Assembly: GCA_018662225.1 (NCBI GenBank)
Contig: JABJGO010000040.1
Location: forward strand, 1-64,000
Reading direction: 5' to 3'
DNA length: 64,000 bases
Source: Rhodospirillales bacterium
GTDB lineage: Bacteria > Pseudomonadota > Alphaproteobacteria > Rhodospirillales > Casp-alpha2
Program-made: the position numbers and the translations under genes
The notes under the pieces: model-generated
The model's database searches: none
What the model saw: the letters and a program-made list of their open reading frames with translations, nothing else
Told to the model about the DNA's origin: nothing
Part shown: in pieces, positions 4,544 through 59,000 of the stretch
Layout: the number at the start of each line of letters is the position of its first letter
Position numbering within the stretch: the stretch's first letter is position 1

Positions 4544-5499
4544 GATCTGGTCTCACCCAACAATGACACGACTTCCTGTTCTACCTGGTCCACGCTCAAA
4601 TCCGCCATAAACTGGTGATGTGCTGAATTCTTGTAATCATAGTCCGCCGGGAACAATTCGTCATACCCTCTGCCCCCCCGCACGGCCCGACACCTGTCAC
4701 CCCACGGTGCATAGTGTTCTTCGCGGCTGGGGCCAAACAGGCCAAGGGTGGGAATACCCGCCGCCGCCGCCATGTGCATGAGGCCTGAATCGTTGCCCAC
4801 AAAAATTTGCGCGCGCTTAAGACAGGCATACAGCTCAAGCAAACTAACCATACCCATCAAATCGATGCGCTGACAGGGTGGAATATTCTCCAATAACGGT
4901 GCCGCTTGTAATCGCTCGTCGGTGGTGCCGAACACGGCGATACGGGCGTTTAGTAACGGGCCATCTGTACGGGTCAGTCGCTTGACCAGCTCAACGAAGT
5001 TCTCAGCGGCCCAAGTCTTGGGCTGCCAGTTCGATACAGGACCGAGTGCGATTATCGGCCCGCCTTCCGGCAACAACTGCGCCGCCCGCTCGTCCTGTGC
5101 TGCTGTGGTCCACAAAACGGGTGCGGGCGGATTGTCTTCCAACCCCAGCACGGCAGCATTGCGGATCATACGATGGCCATCCATGTGGCCCCGACCGATG
5201 TGCCGGCCTTTTTTATGGGGCACCAGATAGGTGATCGGCGAATTGCGCAAATCAATCACCTGATCCCACAGGCTGCCCACCGTATTCAGCCAGAAATCCA
5301 ACCAGTGCAGGGACATCTTCTTTTTGCGCAGCACGATAATGCGTTCCAGCCCCGGCACGGCCGCAAACAAACCGGCCGCCGCCGGGCCGCAAGCCACGGT
5401 TACGCGGGCGCCCGGATTCTGTTCAATCAGGTGCCGCAATACGCCCGATGACAGGACCGCATCGCCCACCCGTGTAGCGGTGACAAAAAGAATACGCAT
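4540..5499 (-). CDS. Glycosyltransferase family 9 (heptosyltransferase-like)
   Basis: Of the WaaC/WaaF/WaaQ type, which transfers heptose from ADP-heptose to LPS inner core. The start was moved to the ATG of MRILFVTATRVGDAVLSSGV (5499), because the first 25 residues of the longer frame are unlike the family and the canonical N-terminal beta strand starts here. That gives 319 residues. The donor-site motif NDSGLMHMAAAAGIPTLGLF lies near residues 235-255. It is the first gene of the run GT9-GT2-GT4-asnB. ygfZ is divergent, and the 114-bp gap to its start at 5614 must hold both promoters. Confidence 0.85.
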   Translation of the reverse strand: MRILFVTATRVGDAVLSSGVLRHLIEQNPGARVTVACGPAAAGLFAAVPGLERIIVLRKKKMSLHWLDFWLNTVGSLWDQVIDLRNSPITYLVPHKKGRHIGRGHMDGHRMIRNAAVLGLEDNPPAPVLWTTAAQDERAAQLLPEGGPIIALGPVSNWQPKTWAAENFVELVKRLTRTDGPLLNARIAVFGTTDERLQAAPLLENIPPCQRIDLMGMVSLLELYACLKRAQIFVGNDSGLMHMAAAAGIPTLGLFGPSREEHYAPWGDRCRAVRGGRGYDELFPADYDYKNSAHHQFMADLSVDQVEQEVVSLLGETRS

Positions 5500-5613
5500 A
5501 TGGCGTTTATACTGGGAAACCAACCACTTGCAAGACGCAAGCGCATTTGAGCACTGGCAGAACACGACCAGCAAGCGTATGTTAGATCACCAAAACGTTT
5601 TGAGGGTCGTCCC

Positions 5614-6495
5614 ATGAGTTTTCACTGTCAATTGCCAGATCGCGGCATCATTGCCATAACCGGCGATGATTGCGTCGGTTTTCTGCAAGGCATCGTCTCA
5701 AACGATGTAGAGAAAATCGACCAGACCACCGCCGGATATGGCGCGTTCCTGACCCCGCAGGGCAAGTATCTGTACGATTTTTTCATGGTTCAGATGGGTG
5801 GCACTATTTTGGTCGATACCGAACGCAGCCGGATCGACAGCTTCATCAAGCGCCTTGGCATGTACAAGCTCCGCGCAGACGTTCAGCTGCAAGATGTCAG
5901 TGACCAGTATTCGGTCGTGGCCCATTTCGGGGATGATGCGCTGAGCCAAGTGGGGCTTGATCCCACACCCGGTGCCGCCATGGCACTTCCCGTGGGTATG
6001 ATCTATGTAGATCCCCGGTTGGTCGAAGCCGGTGCGCGTATAATTGCGCCTGTTGATGCTGACATAGCTGACTTGCTGGAATCCGACGCCACGGGCCCCG
6101 CCGCCTATGACGACCACCGCATCAATCTGGGCCTGCCCGATGGCAGCCGCGATCTGATCGAAGATAAATCCGTGTTGCTGGAAAATGGTTTTGATGAATT
6201 AAACGGTGTGGACTGGAACAAAGGCTGTTACATGGGCCAGGAAGTCACCGCCCGCACCAAACACCGGGGGCTGGTCAAAAAGCGCCTGATGCCGGTGACA
6301 ATTACAGGTGATGCGCCGAAACCGGGCACGGCCATCATGGCCGGCGATCGGGAAGCCGGCGAAATGCGCTCATCTTCATCGGCTGGCCACACGGGCCTTG
6401 CCATGATCAAGCTGGATTATTTAGGCGGTGATGTGGGCTTGAGCGCAAACGGCGCGACCCTGATCCCGAGGACACCATCGTGGGCAATCTACTAA
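5614..6495 (+). CDS. ygfZ: Folate-binding protein YgfZ (Fe-S cluster maturation)
   Basis: A 293-residue GcvT-fold protein of the YgfZ/CAF17 family, which uses tetrahydrofolate while maturing or repairing certain Fe-S enzymes. The hallmark KGCYMGQE is visible at about residue 202 onward, followed by TARTKHRG as in the family. The length is usual for the alphaproteobacterial form. A GTG-started methyltransferase overlaps its 3' end by 16 bases. It is one of three GcvT-fold proteins in the window, with the dehydrogenase at 12220 and DmdA at 54710. Confidence 0.9.
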   Translation: MSFHCQLPDRGIIAITGDDCVGFLQGIVSNDVEKIDQTTAGYGAFLTPQGKYLYDFFMVQMGGTILVDTERSRIDSFIKRLGMYKLRADVQLQDVSDQYSVVAHFGDDALSQVGLDPTPGAAMALPVGMIYVDPRLVEAGARIIAPVDADIADLLESDATGPAAYDDHRINLGLPDGSRDLIEDKSVLLENGFDELNGVDWNKGCYMGQEVTARTKHRGLVKKRLMPVTITGDAPKPGTAIMAGDREAGEMRSSSSAGHTGLAMIKLDYLGGDVGLSANGATLIPRTPSWAIY

Positions 6496-7199
6496 AACGG
6501 TTGTTTCAGTCGGCCTTTCCCGCTGAACCGACCATCGCCCCACCCGGCAACACTCATGCCGTCCTGCGCCAATCAGCGACCATGTTAAAGCCCGTCATAG
6601 GCGCTTACCGCCGCCGCTTTACGCAGGAAGGCCCCACACCCAAGGGCGTGTTCTGGGCCGATGGGCACGCTGTAAAACAGCGGTTCGATATTCTGGCCCG
6701 AGTGATTGATCCGGCCCATAACGCACTGGGCTCATCCACCGTCAACGATCTGGGGTGTGGATATGGCGCCCTGTACGATTACCTGTCCGATCACCCTGCA
6801 TTACGTGGCGGCACCTATCATGGCTATGATATCTGCCAGACACTACTGGACTCCTGCATCACCCGCATCCGCGACCCGCGCGCCTCATTCTCCCACGCCA
6901 TGCGGGCCACCGAACGGGCGGACTACGCGTTCGTGTCGGGCACCTATAACATGAGCTTGGCGGCGGACGACGAAGACTGGCAGGCTTACGTGTTTGCGTC
7001 GTTACAGGATATCTGGAATCAAACCGATGTGGCCCTAGCCTTCAACATGCTGGATCACGCGGACGATAATCAACTGGCCGGATTATTCTACGCCGACCCA
7101 AAAGTCTTCGCAGATTTTTGCCGCACGAAATTATCGGAAAACATCGAAGTCATCACGAACTACGGCCTACCGGATTTTACGATTTTTGTGAGGCGTTAG
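6480..7199 (+). CDS. Class I SAM-dependent methyltransferase, substrate unknown
   Basis: 239 residues. It begins at GTG (6480) inside the end of ygfZ; the GAGGA about ten bases upstream supports that start and suggests coupled translation. Motif I is VNDLGCGYGALYDYL near residues 83-97, and the SAM-binding fold covers the middle of the protein. There is no signal peptide. The coupling with ygfZ is the only functional hint. Confidence 0.75.
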   Translation: MGNLLKRLFQSAFPAEPTIAPPGNTHAVLRQSATMLKPVIGAYRRRFTQEGPTPKGVFWADGHAVKQRFDILARVIDPAHNALGSSTVNDLGCGYGALYDYLSDHPALRGGTYHGYDICQTLLDSCITRIRDPRASFSHAMRATERADYAFVSGTYNMSLAADDEDWQAYVFASLQDIWNQTDVALAFNMLDHADDNQLAGLFYADPKVFADFCRTKLSENIEVITNYGLPDFTIFVRR

Positions 7200-7221
7200 C
7201 CGCGAAGACTTTTGGGTCGGG

Positions 7222-7557
7222 TTAATCGCCAGCTGCCATATTCTTGGCTTTTCTGTCACGACCATAGAACGTGGACAAGTAGTCCAGGATCGGGCCCCAC
7301 TCTTCTTCGTCTGGCTCTGCCATTCCCTGTTCTTCTATCATCCAGACAAGGGTCTCTTTCCAACTCTCCCGATTAAGTCCCTGTTGGGTGACCGTCATTA
7401 AAGAATGACAAGCCTGGCAGGAATAGAACACTTCCTCACGGCCATTGCCCTCCGGCAGACCTAGCCATTCATCTTCACTCGCGTAGCCAGCCGGGGCTTG
7501 GAAGCCCCAGCTGGCAAACACGACCAGAAATGACAATTTTCTGATATTTTTCCGCAT
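7222..7557 (-). CDS. sorU: Small periplasmic cytochrome c, electron acceptor of sulfite dehydrogenase
   Basis: 111 residues from the ATG at 7557, which lies 5 nt after the stop of the sulfite dehydrogenase gene; a longer frame reaches 7674 but overlaps that gene heavily. There is a Sec signal peptide (residues 1 to about 26), one haem-binding CQACH at 47-51 and a methionine-containing stretch (MIEEQGM, 73-79) that may supply the axial ligand. Size and position match the monohaem partners of SorA/SorT enzymes (SorB, SorU), which pass electrons to a terminal oxidase. The name rests on gene order, not on an alignment. Confidence 0.78.
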   Translation of the reverse strand: MRKNIRKLSFLVVFASWGFQAPAGYASEDEWLGLPEGNGREEVFYSCQACHSLMTVTQQGLNRESWKETLVWMIEEQGMAEPDEEEWGPILDYLSTFYGRDRKAKNMAAGD

Positions 7558-7562
7558 GGACT

Positions 7563-8882
7563 CTATGCCACCGTAACCGCGACGCGGTGCATTGAGTTGT
7601 TGAGATAACCTTTTGGATTCCATGCAATAGCAAATGGCTGCATACGGTTCTTGGTGTCCGTTGCCCGTGCCCAAACCTCATAGTATCCCTTTTCAGGAAA
7701 TTTGATGGTTTGAGTGAAATGCTGCCAAGCATATGGGTTTGCCGGACCTTCAAGATCAGCCTTGATCCAGGTAACACCAAAATCAATCGAAAGATCGATT
7801 GAAGCCACCGCATCATCACCAGCCCATGCGTGTCCGCGGACCTGAACAACATCTTGCCCATCAGGAAGGGCAACACCTGTTTCCGGGAAGGTAATAAGCG
7901 ATTTTACAGGCATGGCCTCGATGATTTCAAAGTCTCCCTTAGGAACCTTTGTTCCGGGGGCAACCGGGTATCCGGGTACGCGATAGGCTTTGCCCGTCAT
8001 TTTAGGACCATCGTGGACCTGATCACGGAGCCAGATACGCTCCAGCCATTTTTGAGAACATGATCCGGGCCAACCAGGAACAACCAAACGTAAAGGAGCG
8101 CCATTCATGGCATGCAACGGTGCGCCATTCATTTCAAACGCGATCAGGTTATTGGGGTTCATGGCCTTGTCGATCGGGACGCCGCGTGAAAGAGATAACT
8201 TCCCTTCTTCACCGGACAGGTGCGAATCTGCACCCACATGTGCGGTGTAAATGACCTCATCTTTGACGCCCGCAGCCTTCAGGACATCTGCGTAACGAAC
8301 GCCAGTCCAGGTTGAACATGCAACGGCACCGTAGGTCCATTGATTACCCTTTGCTGGTGGATCAAAAAAGCCTCGCCCGTTACCGCCGCATTCAATCGTG
8401 AGCTGCTTTGTAACGACTTCGAATTTGCTCTTCAGATCGGCGATAGACAGGGTCATCGGATTGTTCACCAATCCGTCAACAGTCAACGTCCAGTTATTGG
8501 GATCCATGTCTTCGGGTGGAATGCCATTATTGCGCACGAAGTGACGATTAGTCGGCGTGACCCGATCGTCCAACAGGTGTGCGGGTGTTTCGGCATTAAC
8601 CGGGCGGTCGTTAAAAACGGTCAGCCCATCTTTACCTTCAATCATTCCATGAGTATCAGCGAGCGCAACCGGAACAAAACCAGCCGGCATGTTGCGATGG
8701 AATGGAATGGCCGACCCAATCATGGCGCCCATTGTGGCAAGGCCTGCACCTTTAAGGAAGCCGCGGCGATTTTTGTTTGGCGTCCTTCCAAAAATCACCT
8801 TATCGGCGACGTCAGGGTCCTTGTCATAAAGCTCGTAAAGATTAACGGTGCTATCTTCTATCGTTGTGTCATCTTTTGGCAT
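7563..8882 (-). CDS. sorT: Molybdopterin sulfite dehydrogenase (SorT/SorA type), Tat-exported
   Basis: Oxidises sulfite to sulfate in the periplasm. The 439 residues carry a twin-arginine signal within NRRGFLKGAGLATMGAMIG (38-56), an oxidoreductase molybdopterin domain with the probable Mo-ligand Cys165 in IECGGNGR (163-170), and a C-terminal Mo-co dimerisation domain. The partner is a small monohaem cytochrome rather than the dihaem SoxD, and no other sox genes are present, so a Sor-type enzyme is more likely than SoxC. The order sigma, anti-sigma, dehydrogenase, cytochrome matches the Sinorhizobium meliloti rpoE4-sorT-sorU locus as I recall it, where expression responds to sulfite. It is preceded by an ECF-like promoter and an odd tandem-repeat leader. 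Confidence 0.85.
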   Translation of the reverse strand: MPKDDTTIEDSTVNLYELYDKDPDVADKVIFGRTPNKNRRGFLKGAGLATMGAMIGSAIPFHRNMPAGFVPVALADTHGMIEGKDGLTVFNDRPVNAETPAHLLDDRVTPTNRHFVRNNGIPPEDMDPNNWTLTVDGLVNNPMTLSIADLKSKFEVVTKQLTIECGGNGRGFFDPPAKGNQWTYGAVACSTWTGVRYADVLKAAGVKDEVIYTAHVGADSHLSGEEGKLSLSRGVPIDKAMNPNNLIAFEMNGAPLHAMNGAPLRLVVPGWPGSCSQKWLERIWLRDQVHDGPKMTGKAYRVPGYPVAPGTKVPKGDFEIIEAMPVKSLITFPETGVALPDGQDVVQVRGHAWAGDDAVASIDLSIDFGVTWIKADLEGPANPYAWQHFTQTIKFPEKGYYEVWARATDTKNRMQPFAIAWNPKGYLNNSMHRVAVTVA

Positions 8883-51949: not shown

Positions 51950-52363
51950 ATGGCAATAAAATTGAACGATTCGACTTCGATCCTGAGCGACCTAAACGTT
52001 CTCGTTGTAGATGATCAGGAGACAATGCGGAAGATTATCCGGCAACTCCTGAAGCAGGCGCAGATAGGGAATTCTTTCGAAGCCGCTAATGGCGAGGAAG
52101 CCCTTAAATTCATTGAAAATATCCACGAACCCAACCCTGATGTGGTCATTTGTGACCTGCACATGGATGGCATGGATGGCATGGAGTTTGTCCACCGTAT
52201 GCGTCGTAAGAAAAATCAGACGCCGATCCTGATCCTGACCGGTGATGAGGACAAGTTCTTGCGTGAAGTTACCGAACAGGCAGGCGCCACACGTATCTTG
52301 ACCAAGCCTATATCGGCAGGTGATCTTGCCAAGGAAATCAGCTCAGCTGTCGGTTTCGGTTAA
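51950..52363 (+). CDS. Single-domain response regulator (CheY-like)
   Basis: 137 residues from the ATG at 51950 (MAIKLNDSTS); a GTG at 51917 would add 11 residues. One receiver domain: acidic pair in LVVDDQETMRK, phosphoryl aspartate in VVICDLHMDGMDG, and the conserved lysine in ILTKPIS. No output domain, so it acts by protein contact or phosphorelay. No histidine kinase is adjacent. Its end overlaps the convergent cupin gene by four bases. Confidence 0.87.
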   Translation: MAIKLNDSTSILSDLNVLVVDDQETMRKIIRQLLKQAQIGNSFEAANGEEALKFIENIHEPNPDVVICDLHMDGMDGMEFVHRMRRKKNQTPILILTGDEDKFLREVTEQAGATRILTKPISAGDLAKEISSAVGFG

Positions 52364-52977
52364 TCCCACACATAGATGCTGGGCAGATCAACGCTGTCGA
52401 TCCAGCAGGCAAAGCTGATAAGTGGCTCATCAGCCGTCTGTATTTCGTGCCGTATGCCCGACGAATGGTAGACCAGATCACCTGATGGCCGATCAAGCCA
52501 GGGCTCAGCTCCCCGTTTCCATTGTGCCTCACCACCCATAACGCCATAAACCTCGCTTTGTTTGTGTGCGTGTGGGGGATACCACGCATGGGGTCCCTGT
52601 ATGGTGATGGCCGTGGTCAGGTCATCAGAAAACCAGCACCCTTCCGGGCCGGTCAGCCGAAGAATGGCATACTTCTCGTTGAAGGCTGCGGCCCGTTTGT
52701 CATCATTGTATGACGCGTACATGCCGAACCAGCGCAACTGGTCGCGCTCTGAATACGCCGCACGGGCCAAGTCCCCCAAGGGGTTATCACCGCATAGTCC
52801 AATACAGGTACCGAAGTACTGATCGGCCATGGGCATGGTTTGAGGTTCTTCTTCCTTAACCGGACCAGACCAATCCACACGATCAACGATCTTGGCATAG
52901 CTACTGGATGATTCATGATCCTGAGCGGCCGCCCATTCACACATGGTTTTCAGGGCGGCGATGGTTTTTGGATACAT
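52360..52977 (-). CDS. DMSP-lyase-like cupin (DddL/DddQ superfamily), copy 1
   Basis: 205 residues. A helical N-terminal half is followed by a cupin whose first motif is WYPPHAHKQSEVYGVMGGEA (132-151; His136, His138, Glu142, Tyr144) and whose second is HSSGIRHEIQT (His171, His177). This is the metal-site pattern of cupin DMSP lyases, which cleave DMSP to dimethylsulfide and acrylate. It is the last gene of the five-gene minus-strand DMSP operon, 11 bp after dmdB. Homology is clear by motif and context; lyase activity is not proven, and it could bind a related sulfonium or betaine. A paralogue lies at 58380. Confidence 0.8.
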   Translation of the reverse strand: MYPKTIAALKTMCEWAAAQDHESSSSYAKIVDRVDWSGPVKEEEPQTMPMADQYFGTCIGLCGDNPLGDLARAAYSERDQLRWFGMYASYNDDKRAAAFNEKYAILRLTGPEGCWFSDDLTTAITIQGPHAWYPPHAHKQSEVYGVMGGEAQWKRGAEPWLDRPSGDLVYHSSGIRHEIQTADEPLISFACWIDSVDLPSIYVWD

Positions 52978-52988
52978 ACTATTCAGCT

Positions 52989-54674
52989 CTATTCATGCAC
53001 TTGGTCATGGGCCTGGTCACGGGCCTGGTCACGGGCCTGGTCACGGACCTGGTCACGCAGGACAAATTTCTGAATCTTGCCCGTTGATGTTTTGGGCAAG
53101 TCGCCAAACACCACACGTTTTGGCCTTTTGAATCCTGCCATGTTGTCTTTACAAAATGCAATGATTTCTTCTTCGGTTGCCGTGGCATCCGGTTTCAATT
53201 CCACAAAGGCACATGGCACTTCGCCCCATTTCTCATCGGGTACGGCAACCACAGCAGCCAAGGCCACTGAAGGGTGTTTATAAAGAACCCCCTCTACTTC
53301 CACAGACGAGATGTTCTCACCACCAGAGATAATCACATCCTTCAGGCGGTCCTTGATCTGAATATATCCATTCGAATGCACCACAGCCAGATCACCAGAA
53401 TGGAACCAGCCATCAGCAAACGCTGTTTCTGTTGCCTCGGGCGCTTTGTAGTAGCCCTTCATGACCGCATTACCCCGGATGAGGATCTCGCCTAAAACCT
53501 TACCGTTGGCCGGTACCGGGTTGGCAGTGCCAACTTCGGCCACAATGATGCCTTCCATCATGGGGAAGCGTACACCTTGCTGAGACTTGATTTCGGCCTG
53601 CTCGTCAAATGGCAAGGCATCCCACTGATCCTGCCAGGCGCAATGGAGCACATGACCATAGGTTTCGGTCAGGCCATACACATGCATGACCTCAAACCCC
53701 AGAGCCTGAACCTGTTCCAGCACGGCCGCAGGCGGTGGTGCACCAGCCGTCATGGCCTTAACCGGATGATCGAATGTCTTCTTTTCCTCGTCCGGTGCGT
53801 TGACCAACATGCCCAAAACAATGGGCGCGCCACCAAAATGGCTGATCTTGTGTTCGACAACCGCATCAAAGACCGCCTTGGCGGTGGTATAGCGACAGCA
53901 AACGATGGTCCCGGTTACCGCCGCCATGGTCCAGGCATGGCCCCAGCCGTTACAATGGAACATGGGAACCGTGTACAGATACGTTGGGTGATTGGGCAAT
54001 CCCCAGCCGACCACGGTGCCCATGGTCATGAGGTACGAGCCACGGTGGTGATAGACCACGCCTTTGGGGCGACCACTGGTGCCAGATGTGTAGTTTAGCG
54101 CCAGCGCCTGCCATTCATCCGTGGGCAAGGTCCACGCGAAGTCTGGCTGGCCTGTATTCAGAAACGCTTCGTAATCCATGCTGCCCAGCCGCTCACCTTC
54201 GCCGTCTTTCAACTGGGCCTGATCATCCACAATATCGATGATGTGAAGATCGCCCCGACCATGCAATTCAAGGGCTGCCTTCATGGTAGGCGAAAACTGG
54301 GTGTCGGTGATCAGCACCTTGGCGTCGCTATGATCCAGAATGTAGGCAATGGTGTCCGCGTCCAAACGCGTGTTCATAGCGTTGAGAACGGCCCCACACA
54401 TGGGAACACCGTAATGGGCTTCAAACAGCTCAGGGGTGTTGGCAGCGATAACGGTAACAGTATCGCCCACGCCAATGCCTAAATTATCCAGTGCACTGGC
54501 CAGACGCACACAGCGGTCATAGGATTCGCGCCAGTTATAGCGGCGGTAGCCATAGATAACGGCAGGATAGTCAGGGAAGACGTCCCGAGCGCGTTGCATG
54601 AAGGACAGTGGCGAAAGGCTCACATAATTGGCTGCATTCTTGTCCAGGCCGCTATCGTACGCATTTGAGGACAT
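52989..54674 (-). CDS. dmdB: Acyl-CoA synthetase, probable methylmercaptopropionate-CoA ligase DmdB
   Basis: 561 residues of the AMP-forming acyl-CoA synthetase family. The ATP loop is NYTSGTSGRPKGV (194-206), then YGLTETYGH, GWFHSGDLAV and IKDRLKDVIISGGENISS. The C-terminal catalytic lysine is Lys533 in KTSTGKIQKF. Lying 35 bp after dmdA, it most likely activates the MMPA released by DmdA to MMPA-CoA, the second step of DMSP demethylation. The last 20 or so residues are a repeated R-D-Q-A tail made by a 12-bp tandem array. dmdC and dmdD are not in the window. Confidence 0.88.
   Translation of the reverse strand: MSSNAYDSGLDKNAANYVSLSPLSFMQRARDVFPDYPAVIYGYRRYNWRESYDRCVRLASALDNLGIGVGDTVTVIAANTPELFEAHYGVPMCGAVLNAMNTRLDADTIAYILDHSDAKVLITDTQFSPTMKAALELHGRGDLHIIDIVDDQAQLKDGEGERLGSMDYEAFLNTGQPDFAWTLPTDEWQALALNYTSGTSGRPKGVVYHHRGSYLMTMGTVVGWGLPNHPTYLYTVPMFHCNGWGHAWTMAAVTGTIVCCRYTTAKAVFDAVVEHKISHFGGAPIVLGMLVNAPDEEKKTFDHPVKAMTAGAPPPAAVLEQVQALGFEVMHVYGLTETYGHVLHCAWQDQWDALPFDEQAEIKSQQGVRFPMMEGIIVAEVGTANPVPANGKVLGEILIRGNAVMKGYYKAPEATETAFADGWFHSGDLAVVHSNGYIQIKDRLKDVIISGGENISSVEVEGVLYKHPSVALAAVVAVPDEKWGEVPCAFVELKPDATATEEEIIAFCKDNMAGFKRPKRVVFGDLPKTSTGKIQKFVLRDQVRDQARDQARDQAHDQVHE
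52999..53058 (-). repeat. Five 12-bp tandem repeats in the dmdB 3' end
   Basis: The unit GCCTGGTCACGG occurs five times without gaps; the three middle copies are identical and the outer two vary. It is read in frame as R-D-Q-A/V repeats at the C-terminus of DmdB, beyond the catalytic lysine, so copy number could change without breaking the enzyme. Confidence 0.9.
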
Positions 54675-54709: not shown

Positions 54710-55825
54710 TCAGATAAAAGGCAGGTCAGATACACTGCCGTCACGCATCGTGCCATCGGGCAAGACGACCTTAACCGCCAAACCCACATCCCAGAAGCCT
54801 TTGTCCATCATGGCAAAGGCAACCGTACTTGCCAAATCGGGTGAATAGGCAGACGACGTGACACCGCCCACGTGCTTACCATTAACCTGTACTGACCATT
54901 CATCTGTTGTGGGTGGTACGGGGCCACCATCGATCTTCAAACCTCGCACAAGGCGACGAGTCCCTTCTGCCATGACTTTGGCCACCGCATCGCGGCCCAG
55001 CGCCTCAATGGGGCGGTCCACATGACAATATCGGTCCAAGCCACATTCCAGCGGATTGTGCGCACGGGTCATATCATTCCCGTAGGACAACAGCCCACCT
55101 TCAATGCGCTCAATATGGTTGGGGCAACCGGGTCTGATCTCAAAAGGCTGGCCCGCTTCCCACAAGGCATCCCACAATTCCAACGCCAGATCTTCACGAT
55201 CCACATAAATTTCAAACCCGCCCTGTTTGCTCCATCCGGACCGGGCGATGACAAAGGGGTGATTGTTGAAGCTCAGGCGCTCAAAGCGGAAAAAACGAAT
55301 ATCACGCACCGACTCGCCAAACACCTGAGCCATCAAATCGTCTGATTTAGGCCCCTGAATAGCCAGCGGCCATACGTCAGGCTCGTGGGTCGCCACATCC
55401 AAACCCAAGCCTGTGGCTAACCCCCGTGCCCACAACAGCACATCAGAGTCCGCCAAAGACAGCCAATAATGATCATCAGCCAGCTTCAAGCCCACCGGAT
55501 CGTTGATCATACCGCCGTCAGTGTCGACCAGTGGTGCGTAGAAGCATTGGCCTTCAATCATGCCGCCAATGTCGCGGACCGTCATCAACTGTACCAGGCG
55601 CGCCGCATCCGGACCCTGTATTGAGACCTGGCGTTCACACCCCACATCCCAGATCTGAACATGTTGTTTCAGATGGGTATAGTCAGCCTCAACGGATTCA
55701 AATACCGTTGCCAACAGCATGTGGTTATAGACGGTGTAGCTTTTAACCCCAGCCGCTTCCACACGTGGCGAAAATGGTGTCCGCCGGGTGCGACGGGACT
55801 GGGAAAGTGTAGCCGGTGCCATCAT
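54710..55825 (-). CDS. dmdA: Dimethylsulfoniopropionate demethylase DmdA
   Basis: Transfers a methyl group from DMSP to tetrahydrofolate, leaving methylmercaptopropionate. 371 residues from the ATG at 55825, which has AAAGG upstream and lies 8 nt after the DUF1326 stop. The GcvT fold matches DmdA closely as I remember it: SRRTRRTPFSPRVEAAGVKS at the start, then CERQVSIQGPDAARL, SGWSKQGGFEIYVD and LLSYGNDMTRAHNPLECGL. DmdA is distinguished from GcvT by such stretches. The adjacent acyl-CoA ligase strengthens the call. Confidence 0.93.
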   Translation of the reverse strand: MMAPATLSQSRRTRRTPFSPRVEAAGVKSYTVYNHMLLATVFESVEADYTHLKQHVQIWDVGCERQVSIQGPDAARLVQLMTVRDIGGMIEGQCFYAPLVDTDGGMINDPVGLKLADDHYWLSLADSDVLLWARGLATGLGLDVATHEPDVWPLAIQGPKSDDLMAQVFGESVRDIRFFRFERLSFNNHPFVIARSGWSKQGGFEIYVDREDLALELWDALWEAGQPFEIRPGCPNHIERIEGGLLSYGNDMTRAHNPLECGLDRYCHVDRPIEALGRDAVAKVMAEGTRRLVRGLKIDGGPVPPTTDEWSVQVNGKHVGGVTSSAYSPDLASTVAFAMMDKGFWDVGLAVKVVLPDGTMRDGSVSDLPFI

Positions 55826-55833
55826 CAGGGCCT

Positions 55834-56445
55834 TTACGGGCCAGACCACTCAAGGCGACAGAACTCGGCGCTGCGGCCACCGAAGTCCCAAACCCGGCCA
55901 AAATCACGGATTTTGGCTGTCGTTGCTTTGGACACGATAATATCAGGCGCAATCCAATACCCTGAATTCTTGATCACCACGGGTTCTTTGCCGTTGGCCC
56001 CCATAACAGGCTCGATCACAGCGTCGATCTTGCGGGGGATATTGAATACGCGTTTGTCACCATTCTTGGCATAAGAAATAGGTACACGTTTGGCGCCCAG
56101 ATACTGACCCACCAACACACGAAGCACGCCAGTGCTGCCACCGGCCTGACCAGTCAGGATTTCTTCGATGGCCTGCGCCTGAAAATCATCAGCGCGTTCG
56201 TCAATGTAAAGAGCCGCTGTCCAGTTACCACGCCCCATGTTGCCGGGAATATCCAGCAAGATACCTGCGTTCAGGCCATCCAGCTTGGTATTGCCAAAAT
56301 AGCCGTCTTCAATCTGGATACCGGCCCAACCCTGACAGTAACCTTCGGTTGGGGGGTGAACACCCAATGACACAACGCAGGGGCAGAAAACTGTGCAGCT
56401 GCAATTGAGGATCAATTCACCGTTTAACGTCCACTTCTTTGCCAT
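55834..56445 (-). CDS. DUF1326 protein with N-terminal cysteine cluster
   Basis: 203 residues. The DUF1326 hallmark is at the N-terminus: Cys15, Cys17, Cys21, Cys23 and Cys37 in LILNCSCTVFCPCVVS and the following EGYCQGW. The arrangement looks like a metal site. There is no signal peptide. The family has no established function that I know of and is often next to DUF2182, as here. It lies 14 bp after the DUF2182 gene and 8 bp before dmdA, so all are surely co-transcribed. A role in handling the metal needed by the cupins, or in DMSP/methylthiol metabolism, is inference. Confidence 0.82.
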   Translation of the reverse strand: MAKKWTLNGELILNCSCTVFCPCVVSLGVHPPTEGYCQGWAGIQIEDGYFGNTKLDGLNAGILLDIPGNMGRGNWTAALYIDERADDFQAQAIEEILTGQAGGSTGVLRVLVGQYLGAKRVPISYAKNGDKRVFNIPRKIDAVIEPVMGANGKEPVVIKNSGYWIAPDIIVSKATTAKIRDFGRVWDFGGRSAEFCRLEWSGP

Positions 56446-56459
56446 CGTTTTTCCTTACT

Positions 56460-57380
56460 TTACGAAATAACCGTGGTGATGAGGCTTAAACCCCACACAA
56501 CAAGTACAACACCAATTACTCGCCCAAAAAATTGACCTTTGGGTAGAATTTTTTCAAATAACATAATAACGCTCAAGATCGCCATCCACACCAGGTTCAT
56601 GGTACCACCCACAAACATGATGGCCATCAACGCCCAGCAACACCCGGCACAATAGAGGCCATGCTGCATGCCCATTCGAACAGCACCAATTTTACCTTCG
56701 CGCCAATGAAGCAGAAAGTATTTCATGGGTGAACGACATTGGCTGAGACAGGCTTCCTTCAAGGCGCTCCATTGATACAGGCCTGCCATGATCAAAACCA
56801 CGCCACCAACAACAGGGGCCACGTCCAGCAATGACGCGGACTGCGCAAATGTGTCACTAATGAGCCATTGAAGCATGGTCACCCCGACACCAAGGCCAAC
56901 CCAAACCAGCAAATACCCACTGGCAAACACGGCCGTGGGGGCACTCGGCATTCCTTTTGTGGCGGCGGCCTGGTTAATATCTGAATAGGCCGCGATCACG
57001 GGGGCTGCCGTCGGTAACATCATGCCAATAGCCATGACCATCCACATGGCCAGCACCAGCGCGGATTGCTCTATGGTCCAGCGTCCGGCGTCCGTGCCAC
57101 TGCTGGCGATCACGGCACGGCAAATTTCGCTCCAGATTGATCCAGGGGGAAAGGCACTATACCCGGCCCAAACGAGAACCTGATCGACCATTTCCATACC
57201 GGGGCCAAGATTGGTGACACCACCATCAACCGCCGCATGATCCATGGCAAATACCCAGACACCGACCCAGGCCATTGCACTGGCCGCAACAATTGCGCCA
57301 TAGACCGTCAGTCGTTCCCACGGAAATACTGGCGCATCAGGCGAAACCGCCGCGTTATCAATTGGTAGTGTGTGCGTCAT
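56460..57380 (-). CDS. DUF2182 integral membrane protein, putative metal-binding
   Basis: 306 residues with about seven membrane helices (about 24-46, 106-130, 150-172, 186-204, 245-262, 264-278, 286-304). Conserved polar features fit DUF2182: MAIGMMLPTAAP in helix 2, CLSQCRSP (Cys211, Cys215), and HGLYCAGCCWALM (His240, Cys244, Cys247, Cys248). The cysteine/histidine pairs in or near the membrane suggest metal or thiol chemistry. It is the first gene of the DMSP operon and is divergent from a LysR regulator. Confidence 0.82.
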   Translation of the reverse strand: MTHTLPIDNAAVSPDAPVFPWERLTVYGAIVAASAMAWVGVWVFAMDHAAVDGGVTNLGPGMEMVDQVLVWAGYSAFPPGSIWSEICRAVIASSGTDAGRWTIEQSALVLAMWMVMAIGMMLPTAAPVIAAYSDINQAAATKGMPSAPTAVFASGYLLVWVGLGVGVTMLQWLISDTFAQSASLLDVAPVVGGVVLIMAGLYQWSALKEACLSQCRSPMKYFLLHWREGKIGAVRMGMQHGLYCAGCCWALMAIMFVGGTMNLVWMAILSVIMLFEKILPKGQFFGRVIGVVLVVWGLSLITTVIS

Positions 57381-57493: not shown

Positions 57494-58396
57494 ATGAAAC
57501 GCCGATTACCTCCCTTGAACTGGCTCAGATCCTTCGAATCAGCGGCACGATTGCTCAGCTTCACCGCTGCGGGTGAAGAGCTGTATCTGACCCAGGCCGC
57601 CATCAGCCAGCATATCAAATCACTGGAGCAATATCTGGGAACGCCGCTGTTCATCCGCCTGCCACGAAGCCTGCGCCTTACAGATCATGGCAGGGCCTAT
57701 CAGCTACGAATCGAACCTGTTCTTAATCAGCTGGCCGACGACACAGACGAGATATTTGGCCACGACACCAAGAACCAGCTGGTTATTCGGGTTAACGCGG
57801 CATTTTCCGTGCTTTGGCTGGCCCCCCGCATTGGCCGCTTTCTCGCCGCAAACCCCAATATTGATTTGCGGATCACCAACCCCGTGTGGGCGCTGGGTGA
57901 AATGGAAGAAGGCGCGGATTTTGAAATCCAGTACGGTAGTGGCGATTGGCCAGGGATGGACGTAACCCAACTAACCCGGGATACGTTGTTCCCGGTGTGC
58001 CATCCGGATCACGTGTCGCGTACCCATGACGACTTAGCCGCAGAGCTACGCATCCATGTGATCGGTTATCGGGACGGTTGGGCAGACTGGTGCAAGGTTG
58101 CGAATTCAGCAGACCTGGCCATTAACCGCGATATCCAGTGCGATAATTCCATCATGGCTTTCGAGATGGCTGCCAAGGGCATCGGCGTGGCAATTGCGCG
58201 TCACTCGTTGGCAAGCGAGATGTTGGGCAAAGGAGTTCTGGCGCGGCCTTTCGATACGGCGGTGCCGACCAGTCAAAACTTCTATCTCATAAATCCGCTC
58301 AACGTATCCACATCACCGTCGAAAACGGCTTTCCGAGACTGGCTCATCGCTGAGGCAGCAGAATTTCAAGACGGAAGCTCTATCCCCGCACCATAA
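57494..58396 (+). CDS. LysR-family regulator (GcvA-like), probable DMSP cluster regulator
   Basis: 300 residues from the ATG at 57494 (MKRRLPPLNWLRSFE); the frame extends to 57458. The winged helix-turn-helix is LSFTAAGEELYLTQAAISQH followed by IKSLEQYLGTPLF, of the GcvA style. The C-terminal effector domain (about 90-295) is periplasmic-binding-protein-like. It is divergent from the DUF2182-dmdAB operon and convergent with the second cupin, whose stop it overlaps by 17 bp, so it probably controls one or both. The ligand may be DMSP, acrylate or a derivative (inference). Confidence 0.85.
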   Translation: MKRRLPPLNWLRSFESAARLLSFTAAGEELYLTQAAISQHIKSLEQYLGTPLFIRLPRSLRLTDHGRAYQLRIEPVLNQLADDTDEIFGHDTKNQLVIRVNAAFSVLWLAPRIGRFLAANPNIDLRITNPVWALGEMEEGADFEIQYGSGDWPGMDVTQLTRDTLFPVCHPDHVSRTHDDLAAELRIHVIGYRDGWADWCKVANSADLAINRDIQCDNSIMAFEMAAKGIGVAIARHSLASEMLGKGVLARPFDTAVPTSQNFYLINPLNVSTSPSKTAFRDWLIAEAAEFQDGSSIPAP

Positions 58397-59000
58397 CAAG
58401 GGGGCTATCCACATGGGTGGTCCATAACCACACCGTCAACAATGCTGAATGGTTGGTTTGCATGGCGTGGCGAATGCCTGTTTCATGGTGAATCAGTGTG
58501 CCGGATTCCACAGGGAACCATGGGTCTGAGCCAATTTTCCAATCCCCGTCACCACCGATGATCCAGTACGTCTCCACTGCTTGATGAGCATGGGGTGGAT
58601 AGTAGATATCAGGTGCCTGAATACTAAAACCGCCGGCGATTTTGTCTGATACCAGTGGGCCGTTACTGCCGAAGATCGAACAATAGGCAAAACGGTTCTG
58701 GAAAGCCTCGATATCAGGTTCATCCGCGTTGCCTTCGCCCCACAGGTTCCACCTGATCTGATCCTTGGCACCGAGAATGGCTTCACCAATCATGTGGGCG
58801 TTGGACCCGTATTGCCCTGCCGACGTGCACAGGCTTTCAAGGCACTCATCCACAACTGCCGGGCTGCGGGGTTCCGTCGGTTGTAACGCCGACGACCATT
58901 TAACATGTTTTAAGGCAAAGGCCGCAGCCTCACCCGCATCGTCACCATTTAATGCCGCGGATTCGAACAAATCCTTCAAAGCCCCAATTACGCGCTTCAT
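58380..59000 (-). CDS. DMSP-lyase-like cupin (DddL/DddQ superfamily), copy 2
   Basis: 206 residues. Cupin motif 1 is YYPPHAHQAVETYWIIGG (133-150; His137, His139, Glu143, Tyr145). Motif 2 is HHETGIRHAMQT (171-182; His178), then LWTTHVDSP. Metal and catalytic-type residues line up one for one with the cupin at 52360, and the W after GGDGD also matches. It resembles DddQ more than other lyases by eye. It starts 3 nt after the ligA stop on the same strand, so it is attached to a housekeeping operon. The two N-terminal halves differ strongly, arguing against a recent duplication. Confidence 0.8.
   Translation of the reverse strand: MKRVIGALKDLFESAALNGDDAGEAAAFALKHVKWSSALQPTEPRSPAVVDECLESLCTSAGQYGSNAHMIGEAILGAKDQIRWNLWGEGNADEPDIEAFQNRFAYCSIFGSNGPLVSDKIAGGFSIQAPDIYYPPHAHQAVETYWIIGGDGDWKIGSDPWFPVESGTLIHHETGIRHAMQTNHSALLTVWLWTTHVDSPLVMVRG

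Follow-up and report, generated by a model that had tools for sequence, protein, structure and literature searches.

A DUF2182-DUF1326 gene pair at the head of a dmdA operon

The window, i.e. the whole stretch of 64,000 nucleotides from Rhodospirillales bacterium contig JABJGO010000040.1 that was analyzed, contains an operon on the minus strand in a DUF2182-DUF1326-dmdA-ligase-cupin arrangement. The first gene (56460..57380) encodes an integral membrane protein of 306 amino acids from the DUF2182/PpoB2 family (COG5486-type, PF09948) and is followed by a gene (55834..56445, PF07040) for a cysteine-rich soluble DUF1326 protein of 203 amino acids, the start of which does not have the look of a signal peptide. 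Next in line are dmdA for DMSP demethylase (54710..55825; NF009133, 565 bits, cut-off 410) and a gene for a dmdB-like acyl-CoA ligase (52989..54674), for which the best NCBIfam model is NF006020 with 877 bits and which scores 323 bits with the 3-(methylthio)propionyl-CoA ligase model NF005426, under the cut-off of that model. The last gene of the operon encodes a cupin DMSP-lyase-like protein (52360..52977; PF16867, 79 bits, cut-off 27). A gene for a tyrosinase partner is absent from this set. A LysR-type regulator gene (57494..58396, plus strand; PF00126 and PF03466) is transcribed divergently, and a second cupin DMSP-lyase-like gene resides past it on the minus strand (58380..59000; PF16867, 78 bits). 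DUF2182 and DUF1326 are separated by 14 bp and DUF1326 and dmdA by about 8 bp, assuming that dmdA starts with the ATG at 55825. A preliminary description made from the sequence alone had already placed both genes ahead of dmdA with gaps of 8-14 bp, in full agreement with the positions and the common strand of the open reading frames. The arrangement is more than chance, as it is met again in further genera and, in one case, in a bacterium from a different phylum.

Linkage to DMSP and acrylate catabolism

A DUF2182-DUF1326-dmdA-dmdB-cupin cluster with a divergent LysR gene is present in a bacterium from another genus of the same family (G013), where the regulator at the equivalent place is 61% identical to that of the window. 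In another genus of the same order (G079) the genes are arranged as cupin-DUF2182-DUF1326-dmdA-dmdB. Scanning of named genomes with an alignment made from the window, G013 and G079 yielded 80 loci, mainly from roseobacters and in addition from Dongia-type Rhodospirillaceae and one Nitriliruptorales genome, which belongs to another phylum. The usual order in roseobacters is a divergent GntR/FCD regulator gene, DUF2182, DUF1326, often a DinB-family gene, dmdA and acuI. Within 3 kb, the 78 distinct loci feature DUF2182 (75 loci), dmdA (66), the GntR gene (65), acuI (63) and the DinB gene (50). The latter (PF05163) separates DUF1326 from dmdA in the majority of roseobacter operons (about 50 loci, e.g. 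L103:10606-11109, plus strand). Relatives of DinB include metal-dependent thiol-S-transferases, and the gene may encode another unstudied enzyme of DMSP operons. The dmdA-acuI order of our loci is the same as that reported for the operon of Ruegeria pomeroyi, which is induced by acrylate and DMSP; the portion of that account considered here describes no DUF2182, DUF1326 or DinB genes, whereas in our loci these lie between the divergent GntR/FCD gene and dmdA (PMC3338564).

For an unbiased sample, 150 Rhodobacteraceae genomes were drawn evenly and DmdA was counted above the model cut-off. It is encoded in 62 of these genomes, DUF1326 in 77 and DUF2182 in 80. The two partners are hardly ever separated: at 89 of the 91 DUF1326 loci, DUF2182 is found on the same strand at a distance of no more than 1.5 kb. 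In 46 of the 62 dmdA genomes, DUF1326 resides 43-1694 bp upstream of dmdA. Both DUF1326 and dmdA occur in 52 genomes, dmdA only in 10, DUF1326 only in 25 and neither in 63. The corresponding Fisher test at genome level gives p 1e-11 and is not corrected for phylogeny, so that we base the linkage on gene adjacency and on the clade described below instead. Since DUF1326 is absent from 10 of the 62 dmdA genomes, demethylation can do without the pair. Counter-evidence comes from 120 genomes closely related to that of the window: DmdA scores above the cut-off in 14 of them, and in only three of these is the pair adjacent to dmdA. The notion that the pair belongs with dmdA is supported, and random placement in relatives, which the preliminary description had set against its own proposal, is not what is seen in the Rhodobacteraceae.

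Some genomes point at a connection that is wider than DmdA. Linked-type DUF1326 without dmdA was found in 16 genomes of the sample, and in 12 of them acuI is no more than 3 kb away in the same orientation; in two more, the locus ends at a contig edge. At three loci from the scan of named genomes (L064, L074 and L078) the pair is located beside acuI, and the gene for DmdA resides at another place in the genome. Several marine Paracoccaceae have a gene for a 413-aa reductase beside the pair in the place of acuI, which we take to be crotonyl-CoA carboxylase/reductase-like (Ccr-like). In the Dongia-type genomes, the pair is accompanied by the gene for a dmdB-like ligase, and no protein reaches the DmdA cut-off. 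The occurrence of the pair with acuI or the ligase in genomes lacking dmdA indicates that it follows DMSP/acrylate catabolism and not DmdA alone, and its retention beside acuI in such genomes argues against a tie to methanethiol production alone. In one genome (G144; L137, G144:C59, about 4837-6066), the gene finder reported the dmdA next to the intact pair and acuI as two separate frames, which looks as if dmdA were decaying while its neighbors are kept.

A single clade of DMSP-linked DUF1326 proteins

In a tree of 165 DUF1326 sequences, one clade with a support of 0.99 holds 104 proteins, including all 96 that are linked to dmdA, acuI, the dmdB-like ligase or the Ccr-like reductase. Not a single linked protein is found among the 61 sequences outside; the remaining eight clade members are mostly encoded at contig ends or beside DinB/GntR genes. 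The link between DUF1326 and DMSP genes is not a matter of chance. The DUF1326 protein of the window resides in this clade.

The preliminary description had noted a CxC-x3-CxC cluster plus a fifth cysteine in this protein, and these are indeed present as C15-x-C17-x3-C21-x-C23 (codons C15 to C23 at 56377..56403, minus strand) and C37 (56335-56337, minus strand). A sixth cysteine, C196 (55858-55860, minus strand), had been missed. All six are invariant in an alignment of 45 DUF1326 relatives. In the larger set, C15, C17, C21, C23 and C37 are each conserved in 104 of 104 sequences inside the DMSP-linked clade and in at least 60 of the 61 outside. The five-cysteine set is family-wide and no DMSP-specific feature. 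C196, in contrast, is present in 103 of 104 clade members versus 8 of 61 other sequences, and H30 in 99 of 104 versus 2 of 61; the window protein has both. In total, 28 residues are shared by nearly all members of the linked clade and seldom occur elsewhere, among them F20, H30, W40, Y163, W164, R184, F188, E194 and C196.

The genome from which the window originates contains DUF1326-DUF2182 units at three places (contigs C2, C22 and C55). The pairs on C22 and C55, just as those from other Pseudomonadota, share the two-gene unit and the CxC-x3-CxC plus C37 signature with the DMSP-linked type, but they mostly lack C196 and H30, branch elsewhere in the tree and are not accompanied by conserved neighbors. 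Among 100 neighbor proteins at 28 unlinked loci, no family was found at more than four loci, and the unlinked pairs thus look context-free. Two unlinked copies, on C55 of the window's genome (L029:6853-9319) and in G013 (L031:732-3099), carry a gene for a rhodanese-type sulfurtransferase between DUF1326 and DUF2182. On C22 (L028:2329-7085), two tandem DUF1326 genes are combined with one DUF2182 gene and preceded by a GntR/FCD gene on the same strand; the genes for a third PF16867 cupin and for a methyltransferase converge on this pair.

Sequence motifs and predicted structures

DUF2182 from the window matches PF09948 over residues 110-299 in a Pfam profile search (216 bits, cut-off 28.7). This family is now named PpoB2, 'copper chaperone', in Pfam. 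Hydrophobic segments comprise residues 23-49, 101-133, 146-176, 177-208, 238-282 and 283-306. The C-x3-C and H-x3-C-x2-CC motifs ascribed to the protein in the preliminary description are present with all their residues as C211-x3-C215 in a predicted cytoplasmic loop (56736..56750, minus strand) and as H240-x3-C244-x2-C247-C248 in a membrane helix (56637..56663, minus strand). The histidine, however, is not general: it is replaced by leucine in roseobacter proteins and occurs only in lineages outside this group. In an alignment of 39 DUF2182 sequences, C211, C215, C244, C247 and C248 are invariant and so are M112, M116, M120 and M121. The loop formed by residues 209-237, which carries C211-x3-C215, contains five Lys and Arg residues, and a topology is predicted from the positive charges in which the C-x3-C motif would face the inside and the Met/Cys loop the outside.

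This latter loop connects TM1 and TM2. In the 37 residues ahead of TM2, methionine accounts for 21% in the linked clade, for 14% in other DUF2182 proteins and for 4.6% in the remaining parts of these sequences. Roseobacter DUF2182 proteins have a Met-rich TM1-TM2 loop. The window protein is devoid of it and instead contains one cysteine, C87, in this predicted periplasmic region (57120..57122, minus strand), a residue shared with its two closest relatives (L047 and L048). A cysteine in the same loop is also present in the Dongia-type proteins. The structure model of DUF2182 depicts a helical membrane protein (pLDDT 82), and a search for similar folds among solved structures did not yield any match beyond the helical background (best Foldseek E 0.42, best Z 6.5).

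The DUF1326 protein matches PF07040 over residues 14-191 (176 bits, cut-off 25). Its structure model, based on 45 sequences, has a mean pLDDT of 84, with values below 50 for residues 18-31 inside the cysteine loop. No sequence match to solved structures was found for this protein. In the structure comparison, the twelve top-ranked rows without exception belong to the acetoacetate-decarboxylase type (beta-cone fold), the best one aligning 156 residues with a Z of 10.9 and an rmsd of 3.4. DUF1326 thus resembles members of the acetoacetate decarboxylase superfamily over most of its length. It differs from them by its N-terminal cysteine cluster, by the missing sequence match and by the lack of a conserved lysine: a Schiff-base lysine was sought, and no lysine is invariant among the 45 clade members or family-wide among the 165 DUF1326 sequences. 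To our knowledge, the fold resembles acetoacetate decarboxylase and no known copper chaperone.

A possible Cu(I) relay

PpoB2 from Marinomonas mediterranea is involved in the specific transfer of copper to the tyrosinase PpoB1 (PMC2855505). A metal role of the pair is likely because DUF2182 belongs to the PpoB2/COG5486 family, the single studied member of which transfers copper to a tyrosinase. Of the metal- or thiol-handling module envisaged in the preliminary description, the metal part has thus gained weight, but metal delivery to cupin lyases has not (see below). The soft-metal ligands, i.e. the Met-rich (21%) or Cys-bearing loop, the invariant C-x3-C and C-x2-CC motifs and the CxC-x3-CxC cluster of the partner, would favor Cu(I). 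In our proposal, the two proteins form a Cu(I) relay of the PpoB2 type, in a variant dedicated to DMSP/acrylate, a reading that stands evenly poised between right and wrong. From family membership and ligand chemistry we infer that the metal is copper, how the membrane protein is oriented and that the ion is handed over between the two proteins; the direction of copper flow and the physiological purpose are offered as conjecture.

According to this proposal, DUF2182 would capture Cu(I) at its periplasmic loop, be it Met-rich as in the roseobacters or equipped with one cysteine as in the window type. The ion would then move along the Met motif in TM2 and the helix bearing C-x2-CC toward the C-x3-C motif on the cytoplasmic side, which could exchange it with the CxC-x3-CxC cluster of cytosolic DUF1326, where C37, C196 and H30 are conceivable as further ligands. 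The likely purpose would be to keep copper available and harmless while DMSP catabolism disturbs the thiols of the cell, with demethylation leading to methanethiol and sulfide, which bind Cu(I), and cleavage leading to acrylate and acryloyl-CoA, which consume thiols. Apart from the ligands and the family, the proposal draws on the close pairing of the two genes, on the dedicated DUF1326 clade and its linkage to dmdA and acuI, and on the nearness of the gene for the copper enzyme MtoX to the pair in Marinovum algicola, G169 and G272 and to a DUF2182-like gene in G254. Several observations count against the relay: the cysteine loop is modeled with a pLDDT below 50, the window's DUF2182 has no Met-rich loop, its genome does not encode the copper enzyme MtoX (see below), DUF1326 is missing from 10 of the 62 dmdA genomes, and its fold is decarboxylase-like.

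The window's DUF2182 and PpoB2 fall into the same Pfam family by profile match and both are membrane proteins encoded in operons with genes for enzymes. The DMSP operon differs in that it is devoid of a tyrosinase gene, that DUF2182 travels with DUF1326 and that the proteins of the linked clade have Met-rich or Cys-bearing predicted outer loops. A search of the literature for the DUF names, DMSP, the dmdA operon and copper did not reveal a published function for the pair; neither DUF1326 nor DUF2182 is mentioned by name in the literature searched, and COG5486 was met only in a review on Marinomonas. The same statement in the preliminary description accordingly holds for the literature searched, but a plasmid record of Marinovum algicola annotates the two genes as 'Transmembrane protein involved in DMSP breakdown' and 'protein involved in DMSP breakdown', and the linkage to DMSP has thus been noticed at the level of annotation. 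As far as we checked, the dedicated clade, its marker residues, the link to acuI and the copper reading are new.

Alternative functions

DUF1326 might instead be a ligand-binding protein or an enzyme of DMSP/acrylate metabolism, with the cone serving as a pocket and the cysteines holding a structural or catalytic metal that is loaded by DUF2182. We consider this doubtful. The idea would agree with the acetoacetate-decarboxylase-type structures that make up all top matches (best Z 10.9), with the 28 clade-specific, nearly invariant positions and with the company of the acyl-CoA genes acuI, Ccr-like reductase and dmdB-like ligase. However, no lysine is invariant and decarboxylase Schiff-base chemistry is therefore not conserved, a common fold by itself shows no function, and clade-specific conservation by itself does not prove a pocket. 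It is also conceivable, and in our opinion unlikely, that linked DUF1326 represents a new metalloprotein that unites the cone, a six-cysteine Cu(I)/thiolate site and a pocket of aromatic, Arg and Glu residues for a DMSP/acrylate intermediate and that is loaded in the PpoB2 manner. If true, such a protein would constitute an unrecognized step of the marine DMSP pathway.

It appears rather improbable that methanethiol, sulfide or persulfide, and not a metal, is what the cysteine clusters carry. Methanethiol is a product of demethylation (PMC5739008), a DinB-family gene follows the pair at 50 of 78 loci, and a rhodanese-type sulfurtransferase is encoded inside the pair on C55 of the window's genome and in G013. 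Yet the sulfurtransferase is found with unlinked copies rather than with members of the DMSP clade, the Met-rich loop and the Met motif fit Cu(I) and not thiols, and the pair is kept with acuI in genomes that lack dmdA.

The methanethiol oxidase MtoX requires copper and its gene is often situated beside genes for SCO1/SenC chaperones (PMC5739008). Hence, the pair could metallate or feed MtoX as its single client, for the removal of DMSP-derived methanethiol. Apart from the copper requirement and the SCO1/SenC neighbors, this would be consistent with the DUF2182-DUF1326-acyl-CoA ligase-DmdA-AcuI-SBP56 cluster of Marinovum algicola, which includes MtoX, and with the location of mtoX behind the divergent regulator of the pair in G169, near the pair in G272 and directly upstream of a divergent DUF2182-like gene in G254. 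The pair and SCO1/SenC have in common that a probable copper-handling gene occurs in a methanethiol/DMSP cluster, but the protein families are unrelated and the pair mostly does not adjoin mtoX. Moreover, mtoX is present in 32 of 52 dmdA carriers with the pair versus 4 of 10 without it (p 0.30, no clear association) and at none of the 80 loci from the named-genome scan, and searches for MtoX in the genome of the window and in seven further carriers (G013, G079, Nitriliruptorales and Dongia-type among them) found none. We therefore regard the single-client idea as improbable overall, and for the window it is rejected, as MtoX is absent from that genome. Delivery of metal to the adjoining cupin DMSP lyases, considered in the preliminary description and called to mind by the two PF16867 cupins flanking the window's operon and a third that accompanies another pair elsewhere in this genome, is highly improbable and was dismissed, because PF16867 occurs in 28 of 52 dmdA carriers with the clade pair versus 6 of 10 without it, i.e. 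there is no association, no cupin gene adjoins the pair in roseobacter operons, and both copper and zinc act as inhibitors of the cupin lyase DddQ (PMC4437653).

Within the copper-relay proposal, the weak association with mtoX, the missing association with cupins and the existence of carriers devoid of MtoX lead us to favor general copper supply or buffering amid thiol stress by methanethiol, sulfide or acrylate over service to one enzyme. DMSP demethylation decides which share of marine organosulfur ends up in methanethiol rather than in the climate-active gas DMS. The integration of the DUF1326-DUF2182 pair into DMSP operons suggests an unstudied metal-handling step in a pathway of global importance. 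If about three quarters of the dmdA-bearing Rhodobacteraceae have a dedicated copper-handling pair in the dmdA operon, copper status may set the flux through the pathway or its cost, and current models would lack one step. The pair may have been overlooked because it is not mentioned with the dmdA-acuI operon in the portion of the Ruegeria pomeroyi account considered here (PMC3338564). The clade-specific residues and the availability of named culturable strains render its role directly testable.

Some gene arrangements around mtoX deserve mention in their own right. At one locus (L174, G192:C1), dmdA at 5450 is directly followed by mtoX (6704-8101) and the pair is absent. The DUF2182-like gene located 3' of mtoX (L224:4644-5480, minus strand) is found beside adhC-like and metallo-beta-lactamase-like genes, and the divergent protein that it encodes is possibly a copper chaperone of this methanethiol oxidation cluster. 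On a short contig that also carries mtoX, a gene for an enoyl-CoA hydratase-like protein (L225:1472-2281, plus strand) follows a GntR gene opposite DUF2182 and possibly represents dmdD.
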